Assembly (NCBI GenBank): GCA_021383565.1
Contig: CP079699.1
Span: forward strand, 372,001 to 436,000
Reading direction: 5' to 3'
Origin: Levilactobacillus brevis
Lineage (GTDB): Bacteria > Bacillota > Bacilli > Lactobacillales > Lactobacillaceae
DNA: 64,000 nt
The position numbers were made by a program, and so were the translations under genes. The notes beneath the pieces were generated by a model, which had not been told where the DNA came from, searched no databases, and saw only the letters and a list, made by a program, of their open reading frames with translations. The stretch's first letter is position 1. The number at the start of each line of letters is the position of its first letter. Below, piece by piece: positions 8,529 to 27,049 of this stretch.

Positions 8529-8606
8529 TGCTGAACAAAGCAAACCGATTGCTGTGTTTATCGCGCTACCGTGATACAATGAGGGGAACCATTAAGGAGG
8601 AAACTA

Positions 8607-15500: not shown

Positions 15501-15600
15501 GACGCCAGGACAACGCCTCGGCATGGGGTTAACCCTACTGGGCGCTCTGGTATTGCTCGTCACCGGTGGCTACCACTTCTGGTGGCGTCGACGGCGGTAA
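12583..15600 (+). CDS. YfhO family membrane glycosylation protein
   Basis: A 1005-residue protein with a GT-C-like architecture. About a dozen membrane helices fill residues 8-470, with the acidic motif WEGDGLAQHYP in the first extracellular loop, as in other YfhO proteins. A long extracellular region (about 470-970) is rich in Asn, Gln and Lys, and a final helix (about 975-995) ends in a basic tail. In other Firmicutes YfhO proteins are linked to adding sugars to lipoteichoic acid or other wall polymers using lipid-linked donors; that role is inferred here. The start is GTG, preceded by AAGGGGAGAG. Confidence 0.88.
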   Translation: MKASKKNYWLYTLIFAGLVVCLYGIFILTGKSFIWEGDGLAQHYPVLEKFYTWLHAGSLSGWSWNLGLGADKMTTFSYYVLGDPFSYLIWFFPKHSIEMGYNLLILLRLYVSGLAFMLFARQRHFKPGSQMMGTLTYTFTGYSLYVSIRHPFFLLPMILFPLLAYGIDHIYQGKTWVPLAVFTGLALVSNFYFAYILAIGSLVYAVLRYFNVRDTIAQKGWPLIIKLVGAGLAGFLLSGIIFIPSLIGVLTSTRATGNFANGYFIYPFSYYLRLPNALGTTGNPMRFWANLGLAGLTFLSLMYVVRHARRYLWFDIGLLILVIGSLLPEVAAIMNGGTTPSQRWLLLGCLAFSLAVMYFIDALPRIDRSDLSAMIVGTLFLLVLVWAANGFIFSNDPHDFVIYGLLLLTLGAIVVGHFYQWSRHRVIWTLLGLLCLNIVANGYGYFSPNAGGASNQLLTRGVASKFQRNFYDGAESYVKQQPGFKRSTISKYYYYSNEAKTNMGMNLGAHDIMSYFSIQDGSVGDFSEELANSQFKMNKPINQADNRTTMSNLLGVNYIFARSNQLKTQGFPYGYTPVKKNGHVLTYKDRPVHDLGNNYDTVILKSKYALPLAYLQTKQLSQRQFKQLNGSDKEQALTYGALTAKQAKGVPTTTYHSQSKTLGYQTQADNSTVLDNLKQVMKFRQQGNQMDPDKITTTKSSLIQTNQDRSVNITDDKARLERLTGQNRTALQQNNRANRTALHKMISDNQNQPVTYRLHLKQPKQNKGTEMYLELDGIQAERFSVNDKYQAAKTTKAFSNQAFTGITRINQLRSSIWNQSDGAYSVTATTANNVTSFNQLGQSNLSDYQEKHHVLLNLGYSDKARHNIKLTFKGVKNLSFKSAKVIAVPFGSQYDQRMSQLQKQGLQGLDVKNNRVTGTSRSTQASVLTTSIPYNTGWQLKVDGKQQPITKVNVGFVGARLSAGTHKIELTYRTPGQRLGMGLTLLGALVLLVTGGYHFWWRRRR

Positions 15601-15610
15601 GTCTAGAAAA

Positions 15611-15679
15611 AGAGCATCTCTCGACGCGTCGGGGGATGCTCAATGAGAAGGTACTTCGTGTAAAAGCGGGGTGCCTTTT
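15611..15679 (+). terminator. Double hairpin terminator after the YfhO gene
   Basis: GAGCATC...GATGCTC forms one hairpin at about 15611-15640; AAGGTACTTCG pairs with GCGGGGTGCCTT (G-U pairs included) at 15648-15679 and is followed by the T run. Confidence 0.7.
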
Positions 15680-15870
15680 TAGTTGTAATTAAAGAAATCC
15701 CAGATCAATGTGGCGGTCAAGACCACAATAAAGGCCAGTTCAGCGAAGAAATAGTGGTGGGGTGGTGTCTGCCGGCGGCCCATCATTGGCCAAGGCTCCG
15801 GTTAAGCCGTAAAGTAACGTGGCAGCAGAGGTGAGACGGTGTGTAACGACCCATTTCTAGCGAGTCCTCC
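15679..15870 (-). pseudogene. Degenerate small two-helix membrane gene
   Basis: Reading on the minus strand, AGGAGG near 15867 precedes an ATG at 15854, but that frame stops after 23 codons. An adjacent frame carries the plausible helix RLTSAATLLYGLTGALAND, and after a frame change an ORF at 15786-15679 gives MMGRRQTPPHHYFFAEL and a second helix FIVVLTATLIWDFFNYN. This looks like a roughly 55-residue membrane protein broken by frameshifts. Alternatively the 35-residue C-terminal frame alone may be expressed. The remaining bases to 16013 are very AT-rich and hold nothing recognisable. Confidence 0.35.
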
Positions 15871-16013
15871 TTGAAAGGAAAGGTTTAACGGTACAGACCA
15901 ATCTTAAAGGAAGCACCCGTGTTTGGCAAGAAGTTTATCTATTTAATTATTTATAATGTTATAATTAAAATTATTTAAACCGATTAAAGCTGGAGAGAAC
16001 GCTGTGGGGCGGC

Positions 16014-16271
16014 CTAGGAGGCGGTCTGTGTTGTTTGGGCAATGATAGTGAATCTTTCAATGACGTACTGGTGCCGAGCGTTGTAATGGCCATATAGGGC
16101 GACCTGCGAGTTGCGGGTCGCCTGGTCAAGGAAATTCAGGCCATGCTGATGAACGAGGCAGTTTAGTTGTGTGCCGTCGGTTGTTGTCAGCTTGACGAAG
16201 AGTAGCAGGGGCGCTAGCTTTAAGACTTTAGGCGTGGTTGTAATTTTGCCGTTTACGGCGAATTTAGTCAT
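16014..16271 (-). CDS. Small OB-fold-like protein under SOS control
   Basis: An 85-residue soluble protein, not recognised as a named family. Alternating hydrophobic strands (FAVNGKI, LLLFVKLTT, QLNCLVH, SQVALYGHY, YVIERFTII) suggest a five-stranded OB fold such as those binding single-stranded nucleic acid. The start ATG at 16271 has GAGG 8 bases upstream; a GTG nine bases earlier overlaps that site. Its promoter contains a perfect LexA box between the -35 and -10, so it should be induced by DNA damage. The IS30 element has landed just upstream of the promoter. Function is inferred from fold-like pattern and regulation only. Confidence 0.65.
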   Translation of the reverse strand: MTKFAVNGKITTTPKVLKLAPLLLFVKLTTTDGTQLNCLVHQHGLNFLDQATRNSQVALYGHYNARHQYVIERFTIIAQTTQTAS

Positions 16272-16287
16272 GATAATCACCTCATAA

Positions 16288-16316
16288 GCATTATACGAAC
16301 AAACGTTCGATAAAGC
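16288..16316 (-). promoter_or_regulatory. SOS promoter: LexA box between -35 and -10
   Basis: On the minus strand TTGCTT, 17 bases, TATAAT. The spacer contains CGAACGTTTGTTCG (16296-16309), a perfect match to the Gram-positive LexA/DinR box CGAACRNRYGTTYG read on the plus strand. Bound LexA would block RNA polymerase. Confidence 0.85.
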
Positions 16317-16458
16317 AACTCGTTGATCTTGCTAATTTTCTAGATTTATTGAAAGTTTAAACCGTATGGTAAAGTCATTTTAGCTGAGTTAAAATCCAAC
16401 AAAATTTCGCAAATTGCAAGTGCAAGTTAGCCAGCGCAGGCGAAGACAGCTGGCGGAA

Positions 16459-17593
16459 AGGTTTCAGTGAGTTTCAATTGAAGAAAGCTAAGCAGTATGA
16501 GCCTTGCGAGCACGCTTGACTTCTCTTTCAAAAGCTTCGGCTGGTGTTTTGAACTTTAAAATTCGCCGAGGCAGGTTGTTCAGATGCGATTGAGCAATCT
16601 GAACTTGGCTTGGAGTGGCAATGTCGAGTGATTGCCCCTTGGGAAAATAGCGACGAAGCATCCGATTATGAACTTCATTAGTGCCTCGTTCTGAAGATGT
16701 GTACGGGTGGGCAAAATAAGTGTCAGCTATGCCATTCAGTGCAGTCTCTAAGGTCGTAAACTCAGTACCATTATCTGCCGTCACGGTCTTGATAATATCA
16801 CCATATTGATTAACAATATTTCGCAATGCATACGATACTGAATCTGCGTCTTTACCCTCAATCAAGCAGACTATTTCAAAGCGTGTTTTACGCTCTGTGA
16901 AAGTCAACAAGACGCTCTGGCTACCATTACGCTCACCAACAACGGTATCAATTTCAAAATGTCCAAACTCATGACGGTTATTGACCTTCTTGGGGCGTTC
17001 ATCAATACTTTTAGAACCGGCCAGCCGTTTAACTTTCGTTGTTTTATGATGAGCCATTCGGCGTCTTACTTTCTCCACAAGATCGATATTGCGGATCTCC
17101 AATAATTGTGCATCAATATAGTTGTACAGTGTCTTCGCACAAATCATCTTATGAGGTGAAAATAAACGGTGCTTTTTAGCATATCCTACCGTTGCGTCGG
17201 GTGACCAGTGCTCCGTGTGAAACTTGTCATCAAAGTAGGCTAGGAAGTCGGTGACTTGCTTAAACTTTAATGGACGTCTACTATTGGACCGGTTCTCCTC
17301 ATAGCGAGCCTGAGCTGCTTCAGGACAATAAACCTTAAGGTAGTGCTTCTCTCCGTTAATCTTCTTAACCTGCTTAATAGTGCCACGAGAAAGCTCATTA
17401 TTAATGGTTTGATGACTAACACCGATAATAGATGCAATCTGGCGTGCAGAATGGCCTTCGGAGTGTAGAGAAGCAATCATTCCACGTTCAATTTGAGTTA
17501 AGTGGTGACCCTTTTGACGATTTGTGGTAAGCTGTTGTTGCGTCAAGACGAAAACCTCTCTCATTGTTTAGTGTTGGAACTTCAATGATACCT
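16459..17593 (-). mobile_element. IS30-family insertion sequence
   Basis: About 1.13 kb around one transposase gene. Imperfect terminal inverted repeats are suggested by AGGTTTCAGTGAGTTTCAA at the left and AGGTATCATTGAAGTTCCAA at the right (other strand). Ends are approximate. No clear short target duplication was identified, though the 13-base word TCCAACAAAATTT occurs outside both ends (16395 and 17673). Confidence 0.6.
16488..17546 (-). CDS. IS30-family transposase
   Basis: About 352 residues. An N-terminal helix-turn-helix (LTQIERGMIASLHSEGHSARQIASIIGVSHQTINNEL) recognises the inverted repeats. The DDE catalytic core is complete: first Asp in FEIDTVVGERNG, second Asp in TVTADNGTEF, and the Glu in SSERGTNEVHNR (with the expected ERGTNEN-like IS30 motif). 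The frame is open, so the element may be active. The start is likely TTG at 17546 with AGAGAGG 8 bases upstream; an in-frame ATG at 17564 lacks a ribosome site. Confidence 0.9.
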   Translation of the reverse strand: MTQQQLTTNRQKGHHLTQIERGMIASLHSEGHSARQIASIIGVSHQTINNELSRGTIKQVKKINGEKHYLKVYCPEAAQARYEENRSNSRRPLKFKQVTDFLAYFDDKFHTEHWSPDATVGYAKKHRLFSPHKMICAKTLYNYIDAQLLEIRNIDLVEKVRRRMAHHKTTKVKRLAGSKSIDERPKKVNNRHEFGHFEIDTVVGERNGSQSVLLTFTERKTRFEIVCLIEGKDADSVSYALRNIVNQYGDIIKTVTADNGTEFTTLETALNGIADTYFAHPYTSSERGTNEVHNRMLRRYFPKGQSLDIATPSQVQIAQSHLNNLPRRILKFKTPAEAFEREVKRARKAHTA

Positions 17594-17738
17594 GATTTTT
17601 CGTCTTGGTGTCTTTTTTTGACCATTTTTTGATCAATCAACATGGGTGGCTAACTTGATTATAAAATTCGCGTCCAACAAAATTTTTGATATAAATGGTA
17701 ATTTCAATTACCGATTTTGAAAGACCAGTTTGAAATTT

Positions 17739-17782
17739 TTCGCAAGTTTTGCCGAAGCACGGCTTTGCGAAGAACTTGCGAA
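17739..17782. repeat. Long hairpin between the IS and tRNA-Glu
   Basis: TTCGCAAGTT and AACTTGCGAA are separated by 24 bases that contain a further GCC/GGC pair. It lacks a T run. Role unknown; could be an IS-linked or RNA end structure. Confidence 0.5.
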
Positions 17783-17813
17783 GCTGAAGTCATAAATGAT
17801 GATTTTTTGTACA

Positions 17814-17864
17814 AAAAATCACCCAACAAATGCTGATATAACAGCGCTTGTTGGGTGACTCACA
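17814..17864 (-). terminator. tRNA-Glu terminator
   Basis: On the minus strand CACCCAACAA pairs with TTGTTGGGTG and is followed by ATTTTTTG. Confidence 0.85.
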
Positions 17865-17884
17865 CGTCGATAATTCTTTAATTA

Positions 17885-17958
17885 TCACCCGCACGGGGCT
17901 CGAACCCGTAACTCCGCCTTGAGAGGGCGACGTCTTAAACCAGTTTGACCAGCGGGCA
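17885..17958 (-). tRNA. tRNA-Glu (anticodon CTC)
   Basis: A 74-nt cloverleaf: acceptor TGCCCGC/GCGGGTG (the outer two pairs are wobble), D arm with GTC/GAC, anticodon stem TCGCC/GGCGG with loop CTCTCAA giving CTC, and T arm ACGGG-TTCGAGC-CCCGT. CCA is not encoded. It has its own promoter and terminator. The identity follows from the anticodon; the weak outer acceptor pairs make it slightly unusual. Confidence 0.8.
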
Positions 17959-17981
17959 ATGTCATTAACTAGGCAATTACT

Positions 17982-18010
17982 AATGTACGCTACTTGCCAA
18001 AAATTGTCAA
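17982..18010 (-). promoter_or_regulatory. tRNA-Glu promoter
   Basis: On the minus strand TTGACA, 17 bases, TACATT, about 24 bases before the tRNA. Confidence 0.8.
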
Positions 18011-18080
18011 TTGTTGTTTGCATAAAATTACACGAAATTGGGAATTCATACAGTTTACTGAACTTTTTCGTGAAAATGAG

Positions 18081-18109
18081 TTGACACTAATATCCAAACA
18101 AGTTACTAT
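18081..18109 (+). promoter_or_regulatory. tRNA-Gln promoter
   Basis: TTGACA, 17 bases, TACTAT, 30 bases before the tRNA. It is divergent from the tRNA-Glu promoter. Confidence 0.85.
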
Positions 18110-18138
18110 TAAATAGTTGTTTCGGCAACGAGCCTTAT

Positions 18139-18211
18139 TGGGTATTCGCCAAATTGGTAAGGCAGCGGACTCTGAATCCGTAATTTACTGGTTCGAGCCC
18201 AGTATACCCAA
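18139..18211 (+). tRNA. tRNA-Gln (anticodon CTG), integration target
   Basis: A 73-nt cloverleaf: acceptor TGGGTAT/ATACCCA, D arm GCC/GGC, anticodon loop CTCTGAA giving CTG, T arm ACTGG-TTCGAGC-CCAGT. Its 3' end CCAGTATACCCA is repeated at 24903, marking it as the attB of the integrative element; the gene is restored by the copy carried on the element. Confidence 0.92.
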
Positions 18212-18212
18212 T
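18199..18212. other. attL core
   Basis: CCAGTATACCCAAT within the T arm and acceptor of tRNA-Gln, identical to the copy at 24903-24916. Confidence 0.85.
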
Positions 18213-18224
18213 TTTACATTTACA

Positions 18225-18278
18225 TTAGTCGTTATAGGAGCTGACAAAGCCCGCTATAACGGCTTTTCTTTTACTTTC
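18225..18278 (+). terminator. tRNA-Gln terminator supplied by the element
   Basis: TTAGTCGTTATAGG...CTATAACGGCTTTTCTTTT forms a stem (CGTTATAG/CTATAACG) and T-rich tail. A similar but different hairpin with the same CGGCTTTTCTTTT tail lies past attR (24930-24976), so the element has replaced the original terminator with its own. Confidence 0.65.
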
Positions 18279-18312
18279 GCTTGTGATTAGCAACTGACAT
18301 TTAACAGCAAAA

Positions 18313-18344
18313 GACATTCAATAGACATTCAAAAAGACATTCAC
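18313..18344. repeat. Integrase arm-type repeats, left
   Basis: Three copies of AGACATTCA at 18313, 18324 and 18336 (spacing 11-12 bases, about one helical turn) plus a related TGACATTTAA just before. The same word occurs twice at the right end. Typical placement for arm sites of a two-domain tyrosine integrase. Confidence 0.75.
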
Positions 18345-18350
18345 GGCCTC

Positions 18351-18462
18351 ATCCCCTCAGCGAATCAATTGCCCTTCTGCTACCTGCACCGGCCCATGGC
18401 AAGGCAGTAACCGGGGACGTGTCCCCAGAGGCCGCCTATATCACAGGGCCTGGCAGGGGATG
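18351..18462. repeat. Structured repeat R1, copy 1
   Basis: Outer stem CATCCCC/GGGGATG, inner CGGCC/GGCCG and a tip hairpin GGGGAC-GT-GTCCCC, followed by CGCCTATATCACAGGGCC. Related copies are at 23128, 23848 and 24481. No gene fits here. Confidence 0.75.
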
Positions 18463-18493
18463 AACAAAACCCGCTTTCATAGATCTAGGATTT

Positions 18494-19651
18494 TTAGAAA
18501 TTCAAATAGTTTGCCAACTTACTAGTTGCCTCGTTCTTTTCCTTATCCGTCACGGCAGTGTAAATATCTAGGGTCGTCTTGTAACTTGAGTGCCCCAGTT
18601 GGTCTTGCACTGACTTGATAGACGCCCCTGCTTCAAATGCCAGGGTTGCATAGGTGTGGCGGAAGGCATGAACGGTAACGTGCTTCAAATCATATTTCCC
18701 AAGTGTATGCTCCAACCACTTTCTAGGTTTCGTAGGCTGGCACATCTCGTTGTTTTCGTTGGCAAAGACAAGGTTGCTCCCTTGATTCGCGTTGAACCCG
18801 TATTGCAGTAGCCGTTGTTGTTGCTCTAGCTTCCACTGCTGTAAGATACGGCACGTTTTAGGGTCAATGTAGACGGTTCGGTTACTGCGGGCCGTCTTAG
18901 GTGATTGGACGAGCAACCGGGCGTTATCGCCCCGTGATTGCGTCTTAGATACAGTCACCGTGCCCTTCTTAAAGTCAATATCAGACCACAGCAGGCAGAG
19001 CATTTCAGACTTGCGCATACCACTGAACGCCGCCAAGCGGAAAAACACGTTGGCCTGCGGGTCGTTGGTGTCATCATTCAAGCATTCAAAAAAGTGTTCA
19101 AGTTCGGTCCGGTCAAAATAGTTTTCCAGGTTCTTGCGGGAACGATTATCTTTGTTAACGGGGATGATGACCCGTTTAGCCGGGTTCTCCTTGATGACTT
19201 TCATGTTAATGGCAAAGTCCAAAACGCTTGATACGTAGTTTAGCAGGGTATGGTACTTAACTAGTCCTGCGGCAAACCAGTCGTTAATGGCATTCTGGCA
19301 GACTGCAATACTAATCTGCTTAACACGGAACTCACCAAAAACCGGTAGAATGTGAAGCCGAAACATCCGCTTAGTGGTTGCCCAAGTGCTTTCCTTAACC
19401 GTGTTCTGATACTGCGTAAACCAGAGGTCGTAAATATCTTTGAATGTAGAATAGTTCTGCTTGCTAGGAACCCCGTTAGTGTCAGCGTCAATCTGTAGAC
19501 GTGAGATGATTAGTTGGGCTTCTTTTTTTGTTCGCAATCCACGTTTGGTTGTGTAACGTTTCTTGCCCGTGAGTGGGTCTACACCCAAGTAGACTTGAAT
19601 TTTATAACACGTGTTTCCTTTTCTATCCTGATACTTCTTGATACTAGCCAT
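18494..19651 (-). CDS. int: Tyrosine recombinase integrase
   Basis: 385 residues, of the Tn916/lactococcal-phage type. It has an N-terminal arm-binding domain (SIKKYQDRKGNTCYKIQVYLGVDPLTGKK), a SAM-like core-binding domain (about 65-160) and a C-terminal catalytic domain. The active-site residues are visible: Arg in FSGMRKSEMLCL, HAFRHTYATL (His-x-x-Arg), His in QLGHSSYKTTLDIYT with the nucleophilic Tyr. It acts on the att sites 280 bases away, with arm sites AGACATTCA. Start at 19651 chosen for GGAGGT 6 bases upstream; an upstream GTG-type extension would run through the direct repeat region and is not supported. It ends beside a degenerate TAGATCTAGGA palindrome. Confidence 0.95.
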   Translation of the reverse strand: MASIKKYQDRKGNTCYKIQVYLGVDPLTGKKRYTTKRGLRTKKEAQLIISRLQIDADTNGVPSKQNYSTFKDIYDLWFTQYQNTVKESTWATTKRMFRLHILPVFGEFRVKQISIAVCQNAINDWFAAGLVKYHTLLNYVSSVLDFAINMKVIKENPAKRVIIPVNKDNRSRKNLENYFDRTELEHFFECLNDDTNDPQANVFFRLAAFSGMRKSEMLCLLWSDIDFKKGTVTVSKTQSRGDNARLLVQSPKTARSNRTVYIDPKTCRILQQWKLEQQQRLLQYGFNANQGSNLVFANENNEMCQPTKPRKWLEHTLGKYDLKHVTVHAFRHTYATLAFEAGASIKSVQDQLGHSSYKTTLDIYTAVTDKEKNEATSKLANYLNF

Positions 19652-19671
19652 AATGCTACCTCCATAACGTA

Positions 19672-19727
19672 CCACGGCAGGGCAATGGTTATGTAAAGGT
19701 ATCACATCCTAGATCTAGGATTCTAAG
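19672..19727. repeat. 56-bp direct repeat, left copy
   Basis: Begins CCACGGCAGGGCAATGGTTA and ends at the CCTAGATCTAGG palindrome plus ATTCTAAG. It is repeated at 21053-21108 with a single visible difference. The two copies enclose the repressor and two HTH genes. Confidence 0.85.
19708..19719. repeat. CCTAGATCTAGG palindrome, at repressor 3' end
   Basis: The repressor stop codon TAG is inside the palindrome. Other full copies: 21089, 21907, 23103, 24460; a degenerate one is near 18480. Confidence 0.85.
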
Positions 19728-20350
19728 AGGTCAACAAGGTAATTGAATTGTTCTTTCAGTTCGGCAATGGCTTGTCGTTGTGCCTCACTGCTCCCTGCAA
19801 TGGCAGGGTTAACATTCATCCCCAGTAAAGTGACAAGGGTCTGAATGCCAGAGGTCAAGCCGGCGGTGTCTGCTTTATCTGCATTCTGCACTAGCTTGAT
19901 GGTTGTTTTAATGGTTCTTAGTGCCGGTGTCCCCAGTTCTGCTAGGTTGGCCGTTGCTACTAATTTTTGAATATCAACAACTATTTGTGCTTTTTCAGCA
20001 CTGGCTATTTCATTTAGCGCACCGCCTGTGATACCCTCAGCCACCTTATCCGATTCATCCCCAGACAGGTCTTTACCGGATTGCCACTTCTCAATGGCTT
20101 TCATGATTGCGGTATCGTTTTGCGGCTCACCGTTTAGTAGGTAATCCACAGAAACGTTGCTTAGTTCTGCTATGGATTGCATACGCTTGTTGCTAGGCAG
20201 ATTGATACCTCTTTCCCAGCGTGAAACGATACTAGCAGACGCCGGTGGGTCAATCAGACTACCGAACGCCGCTAGGTCGATACCCCGTGACAATCTAAGA
20301 GACTTGATACGGGTGCCGACTTGCTTGCGTTGTTCTTCCTTTTCAGTCAT
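19715..20350 (-). CDS. CI-like HTH (XRE) repressor of the element
   Basis: 211 residues. The N-terminal XRE helix-turn-helix is at about 10-70 (RIKSLRLSRGIDLAAFGSLI...SIVSRWERGINLP...LSNVSVDYLLNG). The C-terminal part is alpha-helical, with no S24 peptidase Ser-Lys motif, so LexA-like self-cleavage is unlikely; derepression would need an antirepressor from elsewhere. It is divergent from the small HTH gene at 20489, the classic lysogeny-switch arrangement. Its stop codon lies in the conserved palindrome. GGAGGTG lies upstream of the start. Confidence 0.88.
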   Translation of the reverse strand: MTEKEEQRKQVGTRIKSLRLSRGIDLAAFGSLIDPPASASIVSRWERGINLPSNKRMQSIAELSNVSVDYLLNGEPQNDTAIMKAIEKWQSGKDLSGDESDKVAEGITGGALNEIASAEKAQIVVDIQKLVATANLAELGTPALRTIKTTIKLVQNADKADTAGLTSGIQTLVTLLGMNVNPAIAGSSEAQRQAIAELKEQFNYLVDLLES

Positions 20351-20364
20351 CTATAACACCTCCC

Positions 20365-20436
20365 TGCATGTATATTACCACATTATTGCACCTTATTACT
20401 TAAAGTGTTGCATTTTAGTGTAATCCGTTGTATGAT
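20365..20436. promoter_or_regulatory. Divergent operator/promoter region of the lysogeny-type switch
   Basis: TTGCAT, 17 bases, TATGAT (20408-20436) drives rightward genes. The region repeats TTGCAC/TTGCAT and TTAGTGTAA/ACTTAAAGT-like words that are likely repressor operators. Confidence 0.55.
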
Positions 20437-20488
20437 AATGACGTTATATGAACTTACTAACTGTTTTTTTATAAGGAGATGACGTTTT

Positions 20489-20671
20489 ATGAACTTAGTT
20501 GATGGCTCACGCTACTTTTCAATGAAGCAGGCTTGCACCTACCTGGGAATTAAATCCACTAGGACGTTGAACAAGTACATCAGCAACGGGTTACCAGTCA
20601 TTAGCATTGCAGGGTCTAAACGGATTGACAAGTTGGACGCTGATAAATTCATGGCCGCTCACAAGCATTAG
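20489..20671 (+). CDS. Small excisionase-like HTH protein
   Basis: 60 residues with a MerR/Xis-type winged HTH: FSMKQACTYLGIKSTRTLNKYISNGLPVISIAGSKRI. AAGGAG lies 10 bases before the ATG. Position as first rightward gene opposite the repressor suggests an excisionase or Cro-like role. It is homologous in pattern to the next gene, so the two may be duplicates with different targets. Confidence 0.75.
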   Translation: MNLVDGSRYFSMKQACTYLGIKSTRTLNKYISNGLPVISIAGSKRIDKLDADKFMAAHKH

Positions 20672-20780
20672 TGGTTGATAGCTGAAATTTACGTAAATGC
20701 CTAGCCAAGCTAACCATCATAAGTAACTATACAGTTACATCCTCAGTAGTGGGGATGAACCACTTAGGAGGTATGGCATT

Positions 20781-21050
20781 ATGGAAATTCCAGTTGAACT
20801 ATCAGAAACCGCATTGAATCAGATTGGTGCAGTCATGCAGGAAATGGCACTGAAAGCATTTAAGGACGCAGGCACGAAACAATCGTTCGGCCCTTATATG
20901 ACAAAACAGGAAGCCGCCAAGTATCTGCACGTTTCATCTCAGACCCTCAACGCATTCATTGCGGAAGGGTTAGAGGTGACGACCATTGGAAACATTACCC
21001 GAATCAGTAAAGAATCTGCGAACAAGTTTATGGAAGCACACACAATCTAA
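20781..21050 (+). CDS. Second HTH (excisionase-family) protein
   Basis: 89 residues. A helical N-terminal 40 residues (VELSETALNQIGAVMQEMALKAF) is followed by an HTH of the excisionase type (MTKQEAAKYLHVSSQTLNAFIAEGLEVTTIGNITRI...ANKFMEAH). The last segment KFMEAH parallels KFMAAH in the preceding gene. Its leader GGAGGTATGGCA is the same as that of the Rha-like gene downstream, a sign that leaders were copied between genes in this element. Confidence 0.72.
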   Translation: MEIPVELSETALNQIGAVMQEMALKAFKDAGTKQSFGPYMTKQEAAKYLHVSSQTLNAFIAEGLEVTTIGNITRISKESANKFMEAHTI

Positions 21051-21052
21051 AG

Positions 21053-21108
21053 CCACGGCAGGGCAATGGTTATGCAAAGGTATCACATCCTAGATCTAGG
21101 ATTCTAAG
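21053..21108. repeat. 56-bp direct repeat, right copy
   Basis: Matches 19672-19727 and includes the palindrome at 21089-21100. Recombination between the two would delete the repressor and both small HTH genes. Confidence 0.85.
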
Positions 21109-21216
21109 CACCTAGGTTAATGATTCAAAATCAACAAAATATTAGAGCATTGGAGTTTTGCACGGCAGTCGTGCTGAACTATTGAACCACCACAGAAAGC
21201 AATTGGAGGTATGGCA

Positions 21217-21903
21217 ATGAACAATCTAGTTTTCTGCACCAACGTTAGTGTCACGGCAAGTACGTATACCACCAGTGACGCAATTGCAAAGTACGCTGGG
21301 ATTACACGTAAATCAGTTAATGAACTAATCAGACGGTACAAAAAGGACTTGAAGGACTTTGGATTACTTCCATCTGAAAAGGAAGTATTAGTTGGCCGCG
21401 GTCAACCCCGAAAAGTCTGGCACTTAAATAGAAATCAGGCAACGCTACTGATTACTTACCTAGATAACACCCCACAAGTTCGCGAGTTTAAGAAAAGTCT
21501 GGTCTGGCAGTTCGACGCAATGCAACAGGAACTGCTAGAACGTCGAGTTAGCTACCAGGCCGCCAAGCCGGTATCTAAGAGCCTAGGCGAAAGCATTAAG
21601 AGCAGTGCCGCATTCGATGGCAACCCGTTCGCTTACAGCAATCTGAACGGGCTAGTGTATCGCCAAGCACTGGGGATGACCGCCAAGCAATTGCGGGACA
21701 CCCGGCACATCCCCCAGAGCAGAGCAATCACACAGTACCTCACTGTTAAAGAGACTGCGGCAGTTGCCAAGGTTAAGCGGCAGATAGCCATGCTGTTAGA
21801 TATGGGGTTGGATTACAGCCGCATTAAAGCGGTTCTAGGCAACCAGGGTATCGTTTATAATGCCACCCTGAATGTACCAGCACCGGCGGCAACGACCGGC
21901 TAA
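21217..21903 (+). CDS. Rha-family phage regulatory protein
   Basis: 228 residues. The N-terminal 100 match the Rha pattern: TTSDAIAKYAGITRKSVNELIRRYKKDLKDFG...GQPRKVWHLNRNQATLLITYLDNTPQVREFKKSLVWQFDAM. Rha proteins are phage/island regulators that interfere with phage growth when a host factor is lacking. The C-terminal 110 residues are different and contain a possible HTH (LTVKETAAVAKVKRQIAMLLDMGLDYSRIKAVLG). Start: ATG 21217 has GGAGG 7 bases upstream; the ATG at 21211 abuts it. The stop codon is followed within 4 bases by the palindrome. Confidence 0.82.
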   Translation: MNNLVFCTNVSVTASTYTTSDAIAKYAGITRKSVNELIRRYKKDLKDFGLLPSEKEVLVGRGQPRKVWHLNRNQATLLITYLDNTPQVREFKKSLVWQFDAMQQELLERRVSYQAAKPVSKSLGESIKSSAAFDGNPFAYSNLNGLVYRQALGMTAKQLRDTRHIPQSRAITQYLTVKETAAVAKVKRQIAMLLDMGLDYSRIKAVLGNQGIVYNATLNVPAPAATTG

Positions 21904-21906
21904 CAT

Positions 21907-21918
21907 CCTAGATCTAGG
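21907..21918. repeat. CCTAGATCTAGG palindrome after the Rha-like gene
   Basis: Starts 4 bases past the stop codon. Confidence 0.85.
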
Positions 21919-21979
21919 ATTCATCCCCGTTGGTGGTTCCCTGCTACCGGGATAGGATGACAAGGTTGCCCTTGATTCT

Positions 21980-22075
21980 GACAAGCTCATTTCAATTCTA
22001 AGCGTTTCTGGGGATGACTGGCATAGTTTGCTAGGCAATCCCATTAAACGACCACAGAGGGGAAACGAGCTTGTC
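21980..22075. repeat. Structured repeat R2, copy 1
   Basis: GACAAGCTC pairs perfectly with GAGCTTGTC; inside, CGTTTCTG faces CAGAGGGGAAACG. The conserved leading block ACAAGCTCATTTCAATTCTA recurs at 23692 in copy 2. Confidence 0.75.
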
Positions 22076-22173
22076 AGGTATGGCAACCGTCTAAAATGTA
22101 TCGCAAAGAATCGCGGCAAAGGTTCCAGGCAAAGACGTGGCAAAGCACCACAGCAAAGAAAGGACAAAATATT

Positions 22174-22401
22174 ATGACAATCACCCAATTACTAAGCACC
22201 CTGAATGAGGATACCAACTTACACGCACGTATGGATAACGACACCCTGTACCTTGAGGGGCAAAAGTTCTTGACCGTTGACACCAGCGCAATTATTTTCT
22301 GGCAACATACCTCAACCATCCTGCACCCTGCTGGCTTGCTGGCAGTAGCAAAGTATGCCGCTCAATTTTCTACGGATTCTAATTCTGCTACTTTATTGTA
22401 G
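22174..22401 (+). CDS. Unknown 75-residue protein of the element
   Basis: Not recognised. A mixed alpha/beta pattern (LLSTLNEDTNLHARM...LYLEGQKFLTV...IIFWQHTSTILHPAGLLAVAKYAAQF). AAAGGA sits 9 bases before the ATG at 22174, which is why an upstream in-frame ATG at 22096 was not used. It lies in the rightward operon between the Rha-like and RinA-like genes. Confidence 0.55.
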   Translation: MTITQLLSTLNEDTNLHARMDNDTLYLEGQKFLTVDTSAIIFWQHTSTILHPAGLLAVAKYAAQFSTDSNSATLL

Positions 22402-22554
22402 GTTTCCGGTGATTAAAGGGGGCCGCCCGGGTTGACGCCGGGTGTCCGTATATCAATGCCATCAGCTTATAAAAATTTTCAGTTTCAAAATAGTTTTAGT
22501 TAGGGGGGGTAAACTATAGTAGTTGCTCCCCTATAGCTTTGAGGAGGACTTTTC
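22402..22554 (+). promoter_or_regulatory. Leader of the RinA-like gene with hairpins
   Basis: Holds CCCGG-GTTGACG-CCGGG (near 22427-22443) followed by GTATATCA, reminiscent of the R1 tail, and AGGGG/CCCCT around CTATAG near 22505-22535. GAGGAGG lies before the start. May be a degenerate R1 relative or a regulatory leader. Confidence 0.35.
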
Positions 22555-22977
22555 ATGATGAAAATTGAGACGTTTCACTTCCTAGAAAACATCCTGCGGG
22601 ACTACCCCCGGTCTAACCGAATCATTGCAGATTATGAGGAGTCGCTACGCTCACCTTACCGGGATGGTAGGGATGAGAATGTTGGCGGTGGCCGTATGCA
22701 AAACAACCGGGATGACAGAGTGGAAAACATGGCTATCAGTATTGCCACCGATAGGACGTTGCGGAACCTGCACTTGTATCAGGAAACAGTATCTAGGGTG
22801 CTAGGCAGAAGTGACCCGGATACCCGTGCCATTATTGACCTACTGTATTTCCACCCTGCTAACCAGGTCAATATATCTGGGGTTGCTATGAGAATGCACA
22901 TGGGACGCACGGCAGTTAGCCGTAGACGTGCAGCATTTTTTAAGATGTTGGCCCGTGAGTTGGGGTACCTGTATTGA
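22555..22977 (+). CDS. RinA/ArpU-like late regulator
   Basis: 140 residues. A helical N-terminal half precedes a sigma-70 region 4-like HTH (TRAIIDLLYFHPANQVNISGVAMRMHMGRTAVSRRRAAFFKMLARELGYLY), the pattern of RinA/ArpU/DUF722 proteins that switch on late phage genes such as terminase. Here no late gene follows, only the repeat-rich region, so the protein may act on a helper phage or be a leftover. GAGGAGG lies upstream. Confidence 0.75.
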   Translation: MMKIETFHFLENILRDYPRSNRIIADYEESLRSPYRDGRDENVGGGRMQNNRDDRVENMAISIATDRTLRNLHLYQETVSRVLGRSDPDTRAIIDLLYFHPANQVNISGVAMRMHMGRTAVSRRRAAFFKMLARELGYLY

Positions 22978-23061
22978 AGTAGTGCAGTAGCGCGTTGACA
23001 GGCGCATTCTGCGGCATTTAAAACTGAACCGGTGGGTAGTTGCCCACTAGATTAACGTGTG

Positions 23062-23092
23062 AGGCGTCCTGATAATGCAGGAACGTCTTTTT
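23062..23092 (+). terminator. Terminator after the RinA-like gene
   Basis: AGGCGTCCTG and CAGGAACGTCT pair with one bulge and one G-U, then TTTTT. Confidence 0.7.
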
Positions 23093-23102
23093 ATTTTACA
23101 TT

Positions 23103-23114
23103 CCTAGATCTAGG
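23103..23114. repeat. CCTAGATCTAGG palindrome in the noncoding region
   Basis: Sits between the terminator and R1 copy 2. Confidence 0.85.
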
Positions 23115-23127
23115 GCCGTTCCTGATT

Positions 23128-23241
23128 CATCCCCACAGCAGAGCAGTGAGTTGGCGCCTACCTGCAACGGCCCACAGCAAGGCAGTAACCGGGGACACGT
23201 CCCCAGAGGCCGCCTATATCACAGGGCCTAGCAGGGGGATG
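23128..23241. repeat. Structured repeat R1, copy 2
   Basis: Outer stem CATCCCC/GGGGATG, tip hairpin GGGGAC-AC-GTCCCC, tail CGCCTATATCACAGGGCC. A 68-codon open frame across it is a shadow. Confidence 0.8.
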
Positions 23242-23292
23242 AGACCTTGCAGTGCTTTGTTCTAAAAAAGACCCCCCATAAAGAGTAACTTA

Positions 23293-23529
23293 GGTTCCAA
23301 GTTCCAACACTGGTTCTTACTTAATTACTAAAATTGGAACCACCTTTATCCTTACTCTTCCAAGGGATTTACCTATCTTGGTTCCGTAGTTCCACTTTTT
23401 AAGAGAAAGTTATTACAAGGATAATAAGGCTTACTGCGTCACTATAAAAAGATAATCTGCTAAAAAGTTGGAACTTGGAACCTAAGCAATTAAATCTGTT
23501 GAGGCTGTAAGGATTAGACTGGTTCCAAA
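23293..23529. repeat. Iteron array 1 around an AT-rich core (ori-like)
   Basis: GGTTCCAAGTTCCAAC at 23293 and GTTGGAACTTGGAACC at 23467 are inverted pairs of doubled iterons. Further TTGGAACC, TGGTTCC, GTTCCAC and GGTTCCAA units lie between and outside them. The core from about 23395 to 23466 is AT-rich. This layout matches iteron origins of phage satellites, but no initiator gene is present. Confidence 0.6.
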
Positions 23530-23595
23530 CCATAAGGCTAAACAGAACTCATTTCGGGAACTGCAATATCACAATCACAGAAAGGACTTGCAAAA

Positions 23596-23712
23596 TTGAG
23601 ACTCAAAACGTTACATCCCCACATCTCAGCAGAAAGCTACCACCCTGCACCACAGTTCTGTAATCCCCATTCTGTACCATACTGCATTCTGGCAAGCTCA
23701 TTTCAATTCTAA
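23596..23712 (+). CDS. Small TTG-start ORF a (possible remnant)
   Basis: 38 codons starting MRLKTLHPH, with AAAGGA 9 bases before the TTG. Its 5' leader and first six codons are the same as in the ORF at 24366, over about 45 bases. The rest runs into R2 copy 2, where it stops at TCTAA. Probably a duplicated gene start cut off by a module boundary rather than a functional protein. Confidence 0.3.
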   Translation: MRLKTLHPHISAESYHPAPQFCNPHSVPYCILASSFQF

Positions 23713-23785
23713 GAGCCTCTGGGGGATGGCTGGCATACTTGTCCACAAACGTGCCTAGACGCTCACAGAGGCTAAAAGAGCTGAC
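23691..23785. repeat. Structured repeat R2, copy 2
   Basis: GCAAGCTCATTTCAATTCTA as in copy 1, then AGCCTCTG pairing perfectly with CAGAGGCT where copy 1 has CGTTTCTG against AGAGGGGAAACG. The outer stem is partly lost (AGCTC/GAGCT remains). Confidence 0.75.
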
Positions 23786-23847
23786 AATTAGTGGCAGTGC
23801 ATTCAAAATGCCATCCTCCCAGCAGGGTAATGGATAACACCCCGACA

Positions 23848-23955
23848 CATCCCACTGACTCCCTGCGGTCTGCTACCTGCACCGGCCCATGGCAAGGCAG
23901 TAACCGGGGACACGTCCCCAGAGGCCGCCTATATCACAGGGCCTAGCAGGGGATG
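23848..23955. repeat. Structured repeat R1, copy 3
   Basis: Nearly identical to copies 1 and 2 from CTACCTGCA to the GGGGATG end. Confidence 0.8.
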
Positions 23956-24012
23956 AGACCCTGCAGTGCTTTACTGTAAAGAAAGTACCCCGAAAAGAGA
24001 AATGATTAAAAG

Positions 24013-24336
24013 GTTGGAACGGGCTTAAATACTACTCCCACAGGGGATTGATGAGTTTTAGCACAGTGTTCCAACTCTGGTTCCATCTTATCAGCAAAGG
24101 TTGGAACACCTTTAAACCTTACTCCCTCAAGGGGTTTACCCCTACTTGTTCCAAGTTCCAACTTAAATAGTAATTATTATATATACGGGAGCAAGGGTTG
24201 TTATATATCTCTGCAAAAAAGAAAAGTGCTAGAAAGTTGGAACGTTGGAACAAACATAGTCTAACCCCTTGGGGCTGTACGCGTTAGGCCCGTTCCAACC
24301 TTGACGATTAGTCAGAACCTATTCTGGAACCTGGAA
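24013..24336. repeat. Iteron array 2 around an AT-rich core (ori-like)
   Basis: TGTTCCAAGTTCCAAC at 24147 and GTTGGAACGTTGGAAC at 24236 face each other across a 73-base core containing TAATTATTATATATA. Additional units are at 24013, 24068, 24079, 24099, 24292 and 24325. Overall order matches array 1, including the conserved CTTACTC...AAGGG.TTTACC block before the core. Confidence 0.65.
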
Positions 24337-24365
24337 CATCACAATCACAGAAAGGACTTGCAAAA

Positions 24366-24464
24366 TTGAGACTCAAAACGTTGTTAAATCACTACGCCGC
24401 CAAGGACGTTCCCGGCACATCCCCGACAACCGGGAAAGATACGCCAACCATCCTGCAACCCTAG
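24366..24464 (+). CDS. Small TTG-start ORF b (possible remnant)
   Basis: 32 codons, MRLKTLLNHYAAKDVPG..., with the same leader as ORF a. It ends at the TAG of the palindrome at 24460-24471, so the palindrome supplies the stop. Possible truncated N-terminus of a former replication gene; unproven. Confidence 0.35.
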   Translation: MRLKTLLNHYAAKDVPGTSPTTGKDTPTILQP

Positions 24465-24471
24465 ATCTAGG
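24460..24471. repeat. CCTAGATCTAGG palindrome supplying a stop codon
   Basis: Contains the TAG that ends the small ORF b. Confidence 0.85.
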
Positions 24472-24480
24472 ATTCTGCAC

Positions 24481-24602
24481 CAGTGTCAGCAGTTGATGGC
24501 CGTTGGGCACCGTTAGTAGCTCCCTGCAACGGGCAACTACAAGGCCACACCGGGGAACGTGTTCCCAGAGACCGCCTATATCACAGCCCCAGACCGGGGA
24601 TG
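24481..24602. repeat. Structured repeat R1, copy 4 (divergent)
   Basis: The tip hairpin is GGGAAC-GT-GTTCCC, where the other copies have GGGGAC/GTCCCC: both sides changed together. CGCCTATATCACAG is kept, and GGGGATG closes the element. An added stem GTAGT/ACTAC lies at 24515-24540. Confidence 0.7.
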
Positions 24603-24701
24603 ATTAACGCAAAACCTTGTTATCCCCACTGTGGGTGCTATACTCATATTGAATGTGAAGGGGTGCCATACCTCTATTGGGCTGATAACATACCTTTTTA
24701 G
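24600..24701 (+). CDS. Possible 33-residue zinc-knuckle peptide
   Basis: MINAKPCYPHCGCYTHIECEG...YWADNIPF has a CxxxCxC...C cluster like the small zinc ribbons of phage genomes. GGGG of repeat R1 directly abuts the ATG, so the ribosome site is poor. It is followed at once by a strong terminator, which supports transcription through it. Could be the tail of a longer lost gene. Confidence 0.35.
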   Translation: MINAKPCYPHCGCYTHIECEGVPYLYWADNIPF

Positions 24702-24728
24702 CTTCCCTGTGGCCGGGGGAGCTTTTTT
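24699..24728 (+). terminator. Terminator near the right end of the element
   Basis: AGCTTCCC, loop TGTGGCCG, GGGGAGCT, then TTTTTT. Confidence 0.85.
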
Positions 24729-24820
24729 GGTACATGAGGGCAAATAAAAAGCTGCTAACTTTTCAGCTAACAGCACATTGCCCCACCGTGACTTAATTCT
24801 AAATTTCTGATTCTAGTAAA

Positions 24821-24841
24821 AGACATTCAAAAAGACATTCA
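24821..24841. repeat. Integrase arm-type repeats, right
   Basis: Two copies of AGACATTCA (24821 and 24833), 12 bases apart, in the same orientation as the three left copies. Confidence 0.75.
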
Positions 24842-24902
24842 AAATATAAAGCTATGCCTACAAACGTTGTTTCTTCAACGTTTTCAAGGGGGTTGGTTAT
24901 TT

Positions 24903-24916
24903 CCAGTATACCCAAT
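24903..24916. other. attR core
   Basis: CCAGTATACCCAAT, restoring the tRNA-Gln 3' end sequence on excision. Past it, 24930-24976 holds the original tRNA terminator hairpin with tail GGCGGCTTTTCTTTT. Confidence 0.85.
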
Positions 24917-25246: not shown

Positions 25247-27049
25247 TTACTGACGACGTTCACGGTACCAGAAGCCTAGCGTCAAGACTAACAGGATCAC
25301 ACCGATTATTGTCAGAATCAGGTTGCTGGTGTGGTACTCGCCCGTTTGTGGTAGGGTAGCGCCAGATGTGGCCTGATGACTCGGCGCTGTGGTGGTGCTA
25401 GCTCCTGAGCCGGCATTAGACGTTGCGGCGTTGCCAGCGCCAGCGGCATTAGTTGCTGGTTGGCTCGTCCCGTTTGTCTGACCGGTCATATGACCGCTGG
25501 CACCGCCATTCGTGACGTTACTGGTGGTTTGACCAGCGCCTGGCTTGTGCGTCGCTGCCGGCTGACTTGGCTTATTCGGCTTCGTTGGCTTCGGTGGTTT
25601 AACCGAAGGCGTCGTGGTTCCGGGGTTTTCAGGATGCGTTGGTATCGTCGTTCCTGGATTCTCGGGATTTGTCGGCGTTGTTGGGGGTGTCGTCCCTGGA
25701 TGTTCCGGATTCTCAGGGTTTTCTGGATTTTCGGGATTCTCAGGATTCGTCGTTGGTGGCGTTGTGGTTCCTGGGTTCTCAGGATTCTCAGGATTCGTGA
25801 CTGGTGGTGTCGTCGTTCCTGGATTTTCCGGGCCAGTCCCGCCACCGGTTAACGCCGTGTCCGTAGCAGACACGGCGACCGCGGCGGTTGAGTCGGCCGT
25901 AATTTCAAATGAAATCGGGGCTGGATTCAACGCATAGCCTTCAGGTGCCTTGGTTTCCACGAATTGGTAGTGACCAGCGGCCAGATTTTCCACGGTGAGG
26001 GCACCTTGGTCATCGGTCGTCAGACCAGTCTGCAGGATTTGACCATTGGCGTCACGTAACTCGTAAACGGCACCAGCCAAGGCTTTGCCGGTGGCCGCAT
26101 CGGTTTTGGTTAAAATAACCTTGCCGACTTGCTCGTCCGCCGTGTTACCGCCGCCGTTACCGCTACCGGTACCGCCCCAAGCGATGCTGGACCCCACGTT
26201 TTGGCCATTCAACGTGGCATTATTCTTCCACAGGCCACTAGTTCCGGAAATCTCCGGCTTAGTGTGGTAGGTCATGTTGACGGCGGTAGTGACATCGTCG
26301 AAGGTGAAGATGATGGTGTTATTGCTGGCATCAACCGTGGGCGTAATGGTATTGCCATCACTCACAAAACTCCCATTGGTATCGTACTTCCCAGTCTGAG
26401 CATACACACTTCCTGGAATGTAGGATTGGCCAGGACCGAGGTTGTCGGTGACGACCGTTTGTCCTAAATGCGTGCTGTTGGGGTTGAAGGCAATATTCCA
26501 AGTTAATCGCGATGGCGAACCGTCTGGATTGTGGCCGGAAACCCAGCCAATCTTGTTAATTCCCCAATCGAGGCCAACGTTGGCATTTTCCTGCGTCCCC
26601 TTGACGTAGAACTGCAGGTGACCGCCACGGTTGGTTGCGGTACTCGACAGGACATCGTTAAACGTGATGGTCCCGGTCGTGGCACCTTCCTCGATGGAAA
26701 ACATCCCAATCTTCTGACCATTATCATCGTAAAGTGGGAAGCTTAAATCCTTACGACCAACCGCACTCTGTGGCAGGTTGACGGTGGCCGTGTCGCCATC
26801 CTGGATGGTGACGCCATCTGGAATCCCCCATTGATAGAGCAATTCGTAATTATCCCACTTGCTGAGCTCACTCCCGTTAGGAATTGTTTTGCCGTTGGAA
26901 TCCGTGATCGTCGCGTTGTTTTCGCCTAGGCCGGAGACTTCAATATTTCTGGCGTGAGCAGTGACTCCGCCAGCGCCAAAGCCTCCGATCAGACAAACTA
27001 AAACGGCGATGAGGATACCCAAGACGACATGACTCTTTTTTCTTGGCAT
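25247..27049 (-). CDS. LPXTG wall-anchored adhesin with Cna-B/SpaA domain
   Basis: 600 residues. Order: signal peptide (1-33, HVVLGILIAVLVCLIGGF), an Ig-like adhesin domain resembling the collagen/fibrinogen-binding families (about 35-290), a SpaA/Cna-B domain (about 308-400; KTDAATGKALAGAVYEL with the Lys and FVETKAPEGY with the Glu of an intramolecular isopeptide bond), a Pro-rich stalk of NPENPGTT-type repeats (about 405-490), a Ser/Thr/Ala/Gly spacer, then LPQTG at about 566-570, a membrane helix and the RERRQ tail. Sortase A would link it to peptidoglycan. AAGGAGG precedes the ATG. The binding partner is unknown. Confidence 0.92.
   Translation of the reverse strand: MPRKKSHVVLGILIAVLVCLIGGFGAGGVTAHARNIEVSGLGENNATITDSNGKTIPNGSELSKWDNYELLYQWGIPDGVTIQDGDTATVNLPQSAVGRKDLSFPLYDDNGQKIGMFSIEEGATTGTITFNDVLSSTATNRGGHLQFYVKGTQENANVGLDWGINKIGWVSGHNPDGSPSRLTWNIAFNPNSTHLGQTVVTDNLGPGQSYIPGSVYAQTGKYDTNGSFVSDGNTITPTVDASNNTIIFTFDDVTTAVNMTYHTKPEISGTSGLWKNNATLNGQNVGSSIAWGGTGSGNGGGNTADEQVGKVILTKTDAATGKALAGAVYELRDANGQILQTGLTTDDQGALTVENLAAGHYQFVETKAPEGYALNPAPISFEITADSTAAVAVSATDTALTGGGTGPENPGTTTPPVTNPENPENPGTTTPPTTNPENPENPENPENPEHPGTTPPTTPTNPENPGTTIPTHPENPGTTTPSVKPPKPTKPNKPSQPAATHKPGAGQTTSNVTNGGASGHMTGQTNGTSQPATNAAGAGNAATSNAGSGASTTTAPSHQATSGATLPQTGEYHTSNLILTIIGVILLVLTLGFWYRERRQ

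Follow-up and report, generated by a model that had tools for sequence, protein, structure and literature searches.

Phage-inducible chromosomal islands (PICIs) carry genes for an integrase (int), a repressor and an excisionase (xis), a replication module (pri/rep) with an origin (ori), and interference and packaging functions (PMC6092414). The cos-type Staphylococcus aureus pathogenicity islands (SaPIs) SaPIbov4 and SaPIbov5 and the Gram-negative cos PICIs such as EcCICFT073 are chromosomal, have their own integrase and repressor, carry a phage cohesive-end site (cos), and use the terminase of the helper (PMC5052747, PMC6092414). EcCICFT073 has no capsid genes and is packaged into full-sized heads, with the terminase skipping cos sites (PMC6092414). 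The phage-inducible chromosomal minimalist islands (PICMIs) of Vibrionaceae are packaged as helper-length concatemers, one of them as an 8-copy concatemer (PMC10803314). The element described here lies in a 64,000-nucleotide stretch of Levilactobacillus brevis DNA (contig CP079699.1, positions 372,001 to 436,000; hereafter the window), from a genome whose 4 contigs total 2.68 Mb. It spans 6,704 bp from core to core and is bounded by two 14-bp attachment (att) cores at a tRNA-Gln gene. With a probability of roughly 0.7, it is a minimal cos-type, PICI-like phage satellite that would use the HNH nuclease and the small and large terminase subunits (TerS and TerL) of a helper phage.

The element shares its layout with PICIs but lacks their replication module. 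It has a specific attachment site and its own integrase (cores at 18199 and 24903, PF00589), and the integrase and master repressor genes lie side by side on one strand, divergent from xis-type genes. The sequence and position of a cos-region block also point to the specific packaging that PICIs achieve with cos or their own terS. A pri/rep module was not found in the seven genes or in ten further open reading frames (ORFs), and because of this the element is not filed as a PICI, though it would work like one. The likeness to SaPIbov4/5 and EcCICFT073 extends to all of the shared traits listed above, as far as sequence alone can tell for the element. However, SaPIbov5 is about 14 kb long and has a SaPI layout with replication genes and size redirection, while the 6.7-kb element has no pri/rep and no capsid family that could represent a capsid-size gene (ccm, a capsid-protein homologue). 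It also differs from SaPIbov4/5 and EcCICFT073 in having a RinA/ArpU homologue adjoining cos. PICMIs resemble it in their size of about 6 kb, their integrase and AlpA-like regulator, and the absence of capsid remodelling (PMC10803314). They differ in having a primase, in inserting beside fis, and in that no cos or pac site could be made out in the helper; the element has no DUF3987/DUF5906-type primase (Pfam, seven genes), sits at tRNA-Gln, and has a cos block. Key replication genes are likewise missing from Flayer and Mulch, satellites of Streptomyces phages, but these two code for terminase, portal, and capsid (PMC10690885), and the element has none of the three. Judged by titles and the starts of abstracts, the open-access literature searched contained no description of an integrative satellite that lacks replication proteins as well as packaging proteins, and searches on satellites in lactobacilli, on ArpU in PICIs, and on satellites lacking replication genes returned no description of this element.

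The genes, the boundaries, and the cos-region block are as follows; the sister is a related element of Levilactobacillus huananensis.

18138 to 18212, + strand: tRNA-Gln (CTG), the integration target, its 3' end being part of attL (ARAGORN, Rfam)
18199 to 18212, no strand: attL core CCAGTATACCCAAT, within the 3' end of tRNA-Gln
18494 to 19651, - strand: tyrosine integrase (Pfam PF00589/PF14659/PF14657)
19715 to 20350, - strand: helix-turn-helix (HTH) repressor (Pfam HTH_3)
20489 to 20671, + strand: small HTH protein, AlpA/excisionase-like (profile matches below curated cut-offs)
20781 to 21050, + strand: second HTH protein, excisionase-type (TIGR01764, 28.6 bits against a cut-off of 28.8)
21211 to 21903, + strand: Rha family regulator, antirepressor-like (PF09669, phrog_2657), missing from the sister
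22174 to 22401, + strand: 75-aa protein without family, 64% identical in the sister
22416 to 22511, + strand: block resembling the cos region of the helper-type phage (candidate cosN and a AGGGGGGGT box), by homology to the HNH-terS gap
22555 to 22977, + strand: activator of the RinA/ArpU family (TIGR01636 score 81.4 bits, above its cut-off of 31.9; phrog_36)
23067 to 23092, + strand: intrinsic terminator after ArpU, also present in the sister
24903 to 24916, no strand: attR core CCAGTATACCCAAT

No convincing replication, packaging, terminase, or virion family was found among the seven genes with Pfam, PHROGs, and TIGRFAM-type profiles. PHROGs, the only database used for the ten further small ORFs, gave no match to any of them; nine of these ORFs lie in the right part. 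The original prediction, which listed att repeats, an integrase, a repressor, and small regulatory genes with no replication or virion gene, is borne out by the att cores and these scans. Its statement that no named satellite family fits holds for the missing pri/rep module but not for the layout, which is PICI-like. Both small HTH proteins have weak small-terminase matches restricted to the HTH part (phrog_57, E 0.014 and 0.004), and excisionase/HTH families fit both of them far better. A Peptidase_S24 domain was not matched in the repressor with Pfam, and a structure model of this protein was not used (predicted local distance difference test score, pLDDT, 42). The 75-aa protein gave a model with a pLDDT of 81, and fold comparison of that model produced no significant match.

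The cos-region block

A 96-bp noncoding block of the element is homologous to the presumed cos region of a phage in the same genome. The block (22416-22511) aligns to the gap between HNH and terS of this resident phage, with 71 of 98 aligned columns identical (72%, E 1e-9). It is the element's sole match under E 0.01 to the whole phage contig; the next, at E 0.02, pairs the two ArpU genes over 23 bases, of which 22 are identical. The local alignment score is 41, compared to at most 18 in 1000 shuffles. More distant phages also match, with scores of 19 for BK5-T, 19 for Sha1, and 16 for C3.1 that were reached by none of 300 shuffles, and a score of 15 for phiOE33PA that was reached by 6 of 300. 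A search of phage records with the block gave best matches only at E 4.

The resident phage, on contig 3, is the obvious candidate helper. This contig of 38,618 bp (38.6 kb) is apparently a circular phage-plasmid, a siphophage of cos type, as judged from its sequence. The HNH gene (phrog_144) ends at position 8567 of locus L047 and terS (phrog_83) starts at 8469, and the block match fills the gap. After terS come terL, portal, Clp-type protease, and capsid genes, while ArpU lies upstream. The contig also codes for a CI-type repressor with Peptidase_S24, Rha, a holin, a GH25 lysin, and a tape measure protein. The reading frame of a ParA-type ATPase (AAA_31, CbiA) leaves the contig end and closes 10 residues into its start, and is followed by an 80-aa ORF without family. 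Four places in the genome resemble the element's integrase when it is used as the query, and all of them are on contig 1. Contig 3 also carries IS200-type and OrfB_IS605-type genes (L048 1999-3782).

The position of the block agrees with the cos architecture of related phages. In phages with an HNH-terS-terL cassette, cos lies between HNH and terS, and the ends of phage records are in line with this position. TerS relatives found by tblastn (364 records) include BK5-T and Lacticaseibacillus phage C3.1, whose records start 76 bp (BK5-T, marked circular) and 66 bp (C3.1, linear) before terS; that of Oenococcus phage phiOE33PA opens 152 bp ahead of it. The cohesive ends of BK5-T were reportedly published by Boyce in 1995. 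By eye, a T-rich stretch and a G-run box (5-7 G) precede terS in six named phages and in the resident phage, and the matching place of the box holds TTAGGGGGGGT in the element and TTAGGGGGGT in the sister. The BK5-T/S. thermophilus-type cos siphophages and the resident phage thus resemble the element in the cos architecture before terS, but they are full phages, and the resident ArpU is upstream of HNH and cos.

A 41-bp core of the block is rare in the family and recurs in viral contigs. The core pattern was derived from the three Levilactobacillus copies, and with up to 3 mismatches it is found at three places in 2 of 397 family genomes: the element, the sister, and the resident phage. A reversed control pattern had no match in the 397 genomes. 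The three family matches are not independent because the pattern was built from them, but its absence elsewhere and its presence in viral contigs are independent evidence. The exact core occurs in 4 viral contigs, and in all of them terS starts 71-72 bp after the core start and the TerS protein is 86-96% identical to that of the resident phage. The HNH gene (88-99% identical) ends 26 bp before the core in three of the four, one of which shows only its end; the fourth contig has just 38 bp of sequence ahead of the core.

The order of genes around cos differs from that of a phage. Both elements have cos and then ArpU, with ArpU where terS would be, while the resident phage has the order ArpU-HNH-cos-terS. 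Because cos precedes ArpU, the reverse of the phage order, a simple prophage deletion cannot yield the element, and the colinearity with a related phage expected of a prophage remnant is not seen. The element's ArpU is 79% identical to that of the sister and 35% identical to that of the resident phage, suggesting that it has its own history. A pattern search for relatives of Rha and ArpU in viral contigs found none.

The sister element and the integration site

A sister element with the same layout is present at the same tRNA-Gln site in L. huananensis (genome G011; strain 151-2B, NZ_RHOC01000003.1). It was found by searching Lactobacillaceae genomes with part of the element, much as the original prediction had proposed. 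The sister is 5,213 bp long and carries the integrase, the repressor, the two HTH genes, the 75-aa gene, and ArpU, but no Rha. Two long DNA alignments with the element, of 2.7 kb and 1.3 kb, show 76% and 72% identity, and both att cores, the gene order, the cos block, and ArpU are kept. A DNA query with the right part of the element, with at most two candidates scored in each of the 397 family genomes, gave any match in 6 genomes; the match is long only in the element's own genome and in L. huananensis, and covers 23-36 bp in the other four. When the two repressors were scanned by pattern against one genome per species (84,980 species), 58 loci were found; the one close match is that of L. huananensis (67%), and the rest are partial, with 29-47% identity.

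The six genes common to the two elements are under purifying selection, judging from their substitution patterns. The integrase is 88% identical, with proportions of nonsynonymous (pN) and synonymous (pS) differences of 0.07 and 0.60. The repressor is 67% identical, with a ratio of nonsynonymous to synonymous rates (dN/dS) of 0.17. The two small HTH genes have dN/dS values of 0.14 (20489-20671) and 0.17 (20781-21050), and the 75-aa gene has 0.24. For ArpU, pN is 0.11 and pS is 0.81 (saturated). A neighbouring host gene has similar values (pN 0.13, pS 0.84).

The integration site has an integrase nearby in some members of the genus and none in others. The tRNA region was matched in all 35 genus genomes, and 24 of the 30 loci fetched have the exact core. 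An integrase lies within 1.5 kb in 9 of the 24 (in G014 it is only 42% identical), and none does in 15. Empty sites in G020, G015, and G012 match the flank past the sister's attR with scores of 51-53, and no shuffle exceeds 18. In G010, G030, G003, and G025, an integrase at the tRNA is followed by host genes, with no second core within 19.9 kb. These four solo-integrase loci are relics, showing that decay happens at this site; the verdict covers these four genomes, and the loci of G029 and G016 run into contig ends. The tRNA-Gln flank of G006 (L243) resembles the left end of the sister (66) and has no integrase within 1.5 kb. It is a possible left-end relic, as is the G022 locus (L229).

Several other features were observed at or near the site. 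In G029 (C29 20500-24597, L214), the same integrase family and tRNA occur with a different repressor and HTH gene, and the contig ends soon after; this is perhaps a third element type. In G010 (L217), the tRNA-Glu/tRNA-Gln block and the integrase are inverted relative to the flanking YfhO gene and a small neighbour gene, compared to the window (12583-18212), and by eye G030, G003, and G025 have a similar order. In the window, an IS30-type transposase gene (HTH_38 and rve, 16488-17564) adjoins the tRNA pair on its left. The immediate right-hand neighbour of the element (25247-27049) codes for an LPXTG-anchored adhesin that has a proline-rich stretch as well as collagen-binding and SpaA domains.

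The relics at this tRNA (the solo integrases of G030, G003, G025, and G010 and the left-end-like sequence in G006 and G022), along with the phage-type relatives of six of the seven genes, would fit an element that is itself a deletion remnant of an ordinary prophage, one that kept the lysogeny and regulatory ends and a chance piece of cos and no longer moves. This explanation is nevertheless improbable. It conflicts with the order of cos and ArpU, and the sister, whose DNA is 72-76% identical, shares this minimal gene set, with both att cores and under purifying selection. In addition, a full prophage with the element's repeats, which the original prediction had named as the case against it, was found neither in phage and plasmid records nor in the 397 family genomes, where matches longer than 36 bp are confined to the element and the sister (at most two candidates scored per genome). 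Of the two origins then proposed, a decayed element kept for its regulators is disfavoured by the same-layout sister at the same att site and the selection on six genes, while a minimal satellite that borrows packaging gains support from the putative cos region shared with the resident cos-type phage.

Less probable again is a domesticated island whose cos-like block and RinA/ArpU would be a decoy or interference device that shields the host from this type of cos phage, and whose mobility would be lost or secondary. The cos block does lie alongside a homologue of a phage late activator, and PICIs are described as interfering severely with phages (PMC5052747), but the att cores and the conserved integrase point to mobility, and a PADLOC scan of four element proteins gave HTH-type matches only. 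Any phage exclusion is not complete, since the assembly itself includes a phage with the matching type of cos. The genes for ArpU and the 75-aa protein are no more than candidate phage interference genes.

Iterons and other noncoding modules

Almost half of the element is noncoding. The seven genes account for 3,591 of 6,703 bp (54%), and 46% is noncoding. A right part of about 1.9 kb (about 22978-24902) is rich in repeats, with 88-nt modules, a 138-nt pair, palindromes, and iterons. The earlier estimate that nearly half of the element consists of repeated noncoding modules stands for this amount, but the repeats are several unrelated modules, a composite rather than one type. The most informative noncoding block (22416-22511) lies outside the 1.9-kb part and had not been noted. 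The other modules are as follows.

18308 to 18343, no strand: left-hand direct repeats containing GACATTCA, possible arm sites for the integrase
21974 to 22082, + strand: hairpin module, copy 1 (fold z -6.9)
23154 to 23242, + strand: 88-nt GC-rich module A, with further copies at 18376-18463, 23869-23956, and 24516-24603
23286 to 23560, no strand: TTGGAAC iteron array 1 (6 sites), origin candidate
23685 to 23797, + strand: hairpin module, copy 2 (fold z -2.4)
24009 to 24340, no strand: TTGGAAC iteron array 2 (8 sites), origin candidate
24617 to 24723, + strand: extended -10 promoter and terminator, candidate small RNA just inside attR (consensus matches only)
24818 to 24844, no strand: right-hand direct repeats containing GACATTCA, possible arm sites for the integrase

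The TTGGAAC arrays are hypothesized to be a replication origin. The heptamer is found 14 times in the element, compared to 10 times in the remaining 57 kb of the window, and it forms two arrays with inverted pairs. The pattern GTTGGAACN{0,1}TTGGAAC has 4 matches in the window, all inside the element, and none in 100 shuffles. It occurs in 9 of 369 family genomes; the 4 matches of the element's own genome are all within the element, and the other 8 genomes have a single match each, in or beside ordinary genes, with at most 3 TTGGAAC per 100 bp. The matching place of the sister has a GTTTTAC-rich stretch in place of TTGGAAC. Among five genomes tested, GTTTTAC pairs were found in the sister element only, and a longer sister iteron motif was found in no viral contig.

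TTGGAAC arrays are also present in viral DNA. Among the matches listed, 120 viral loci were chosen for holding one TTGGAAC pair, and 24 of these have arrays (at least 5 in 350 bp), compared to 0 for four control heptamers. Array neighbours were viewed at 26 loci, and 6 proteins from 5 of these were scanned with Pfam: one locus has Prim-Pol, one a DUF927/primase-like protein, two have integrases, and the fifth has an AAA/helicase-like ATPase and an unassigned protein. Dense arrays, often of inverted pairs, recur in phage contigs (L059-L178, among the matches listed), perhaps as a widespread phage origin type.

A small self-replicating integrative element, with an unrecognized initiator such as the 75-aa protein and a cos serving only occasional transduction, is very unlikely, for although its two iteron arrays are of a kind known from other phage genomes and the 75-aa protein is conserved and has no assigned family, no initiator for the arrays and no primase or helicase family was found in the seven genes or (PHROGs only) the ten small ORFs, and the iterons change in the sister despite the 64% identity of the 75-aa protein.

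Module A has three copies in the right part and a fourth at the left end (18376), and its fold is not unusual. It was considered as a set of extra cos sites and rejected; it shares TATATCA and GGCCGCC with cos, yet it scored no higher than shuffles in 24 of 24 comparisons. The hairpin module of about 105 nt occurs twice per element, and the relative positions of its copies agree between the two (L043 7547-7655 and 8783-8893 in the sister). Its fold z values over the four copies are -6.9, -2.4, -3.3, and -6.5, strong in two and weak in two, and only 2 of 29 consensus pairs show changes on both sides that preserve pairing. Among all loci collected, the hairpin core pattern is found only in the element and the sister. 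An Rfam scan of both elements found tRNAs and no other known structured RNA family.

The palindrome TAGATCTA, a motif picked after the sequence was seen, has six copies in the element and none in the other 57 kb. By eye, the copies are mostly just past gene ends, usually as CTAGATCTAG. The sister has two copies of GTAGATCTAC and a third reading GTAGGTCTAC, a symmetric change. It also has GACAGCCA repeats at both ends, which are candidate integrase arm sites. For the candidate small RNA, a similar promoter was listed in the sister (L043 9540-9567) with no + strand terminator, though a bulged hairpin precedes a T run in the fold. The two promoters are not brought together by alignment, and the promoter and terminator totals are within about 1.5 standard deviations of shuffle means.

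Proposed mechanism and implications

The proposed mechanism depends on a helper phage for replication and packaging. In the chromosome, the satellite would be silenced by its own repressor, which, on phage entry or induction, is probably lifted by a phage protein and not by the SOS response, since it has no S24 self-cleavage domain. The integrase and an excisionase-type HTH protein would then excise the satellite at the 14-bp cores, as the intact attL and attR suggest. The most likely, though speculative, route of replication is that the helper replisome acts on the TTGGAAC arrays and copies the circle into concatemers; that replication is borrowed from the helper is unproven. The HNH nuclease, TerS, and TerL of a cos phage of the resident type would then recognize the cos block of the satellite. 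Several copies could be packaged per head, as five copies (5 x 6.7) make 33.5 kb and six (6 x 6.7) make 40.2 kb, compared to the 38.6-kb phage. The satellite's RinA/ArpU probably tunes late transcription, either of the helper or its own. Packaging is the best supported of these steps and replication the weakest.

Several observations weigh against a satellite of this kind. Every dynamic step is read from the DNA sequence, and a replication protein was not found in the element. The cos block and the resident phage differ at 28% of aligned columns, so that this phage may not be the real helper. The iterons are not common to the two, as TTGGAAC occurs 7 times scattered over the 38.6 kb of the phage and GTTGGAAC does not occur. 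An empty site is less clear for the element than for the sister: the flank past its attR scores 23-24 with G009 and G019 and 30 with G022, more than any shuffle, but G022, which has no integrase nearby, is more like the element's left end (41). Finally, the satellite family may be rare or dying, as the right, repeat-rich part was matched in only 2 of 35 genus genomes and four relatives have no more than an integrase at this tRNA.

A purely cis-acting form of parasitism is possible but doubtful. Here the satellite, with no replication or packaging protein of its own, would exploit the phage by DNA signals only: a borrowed cos and exchangeable origin cassettes, each matched to the replisome of a different helper (two TTGGAAC arrays here, one GTTTTAC array in the sister). 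The regulators would only time excision and late expression. If this were true, no smaller set of functions for hijacking a tailed phage would be known, and these elements would be natural cosmids.

The minimal cos-type satellite proposed here would have consequences beyond this genome. If it is right, the minimum for a satellite of tailed phages drops below the PICMIs, which still carry a primase. It would also provide a tractable system in a food bacterium, where one assembly contains both the element and a phage with the matching type of cos. As a pair that differs in its iterons but has a conserved cos, the two elements would let helper specificity be assigned directly to replication or packaging signals.

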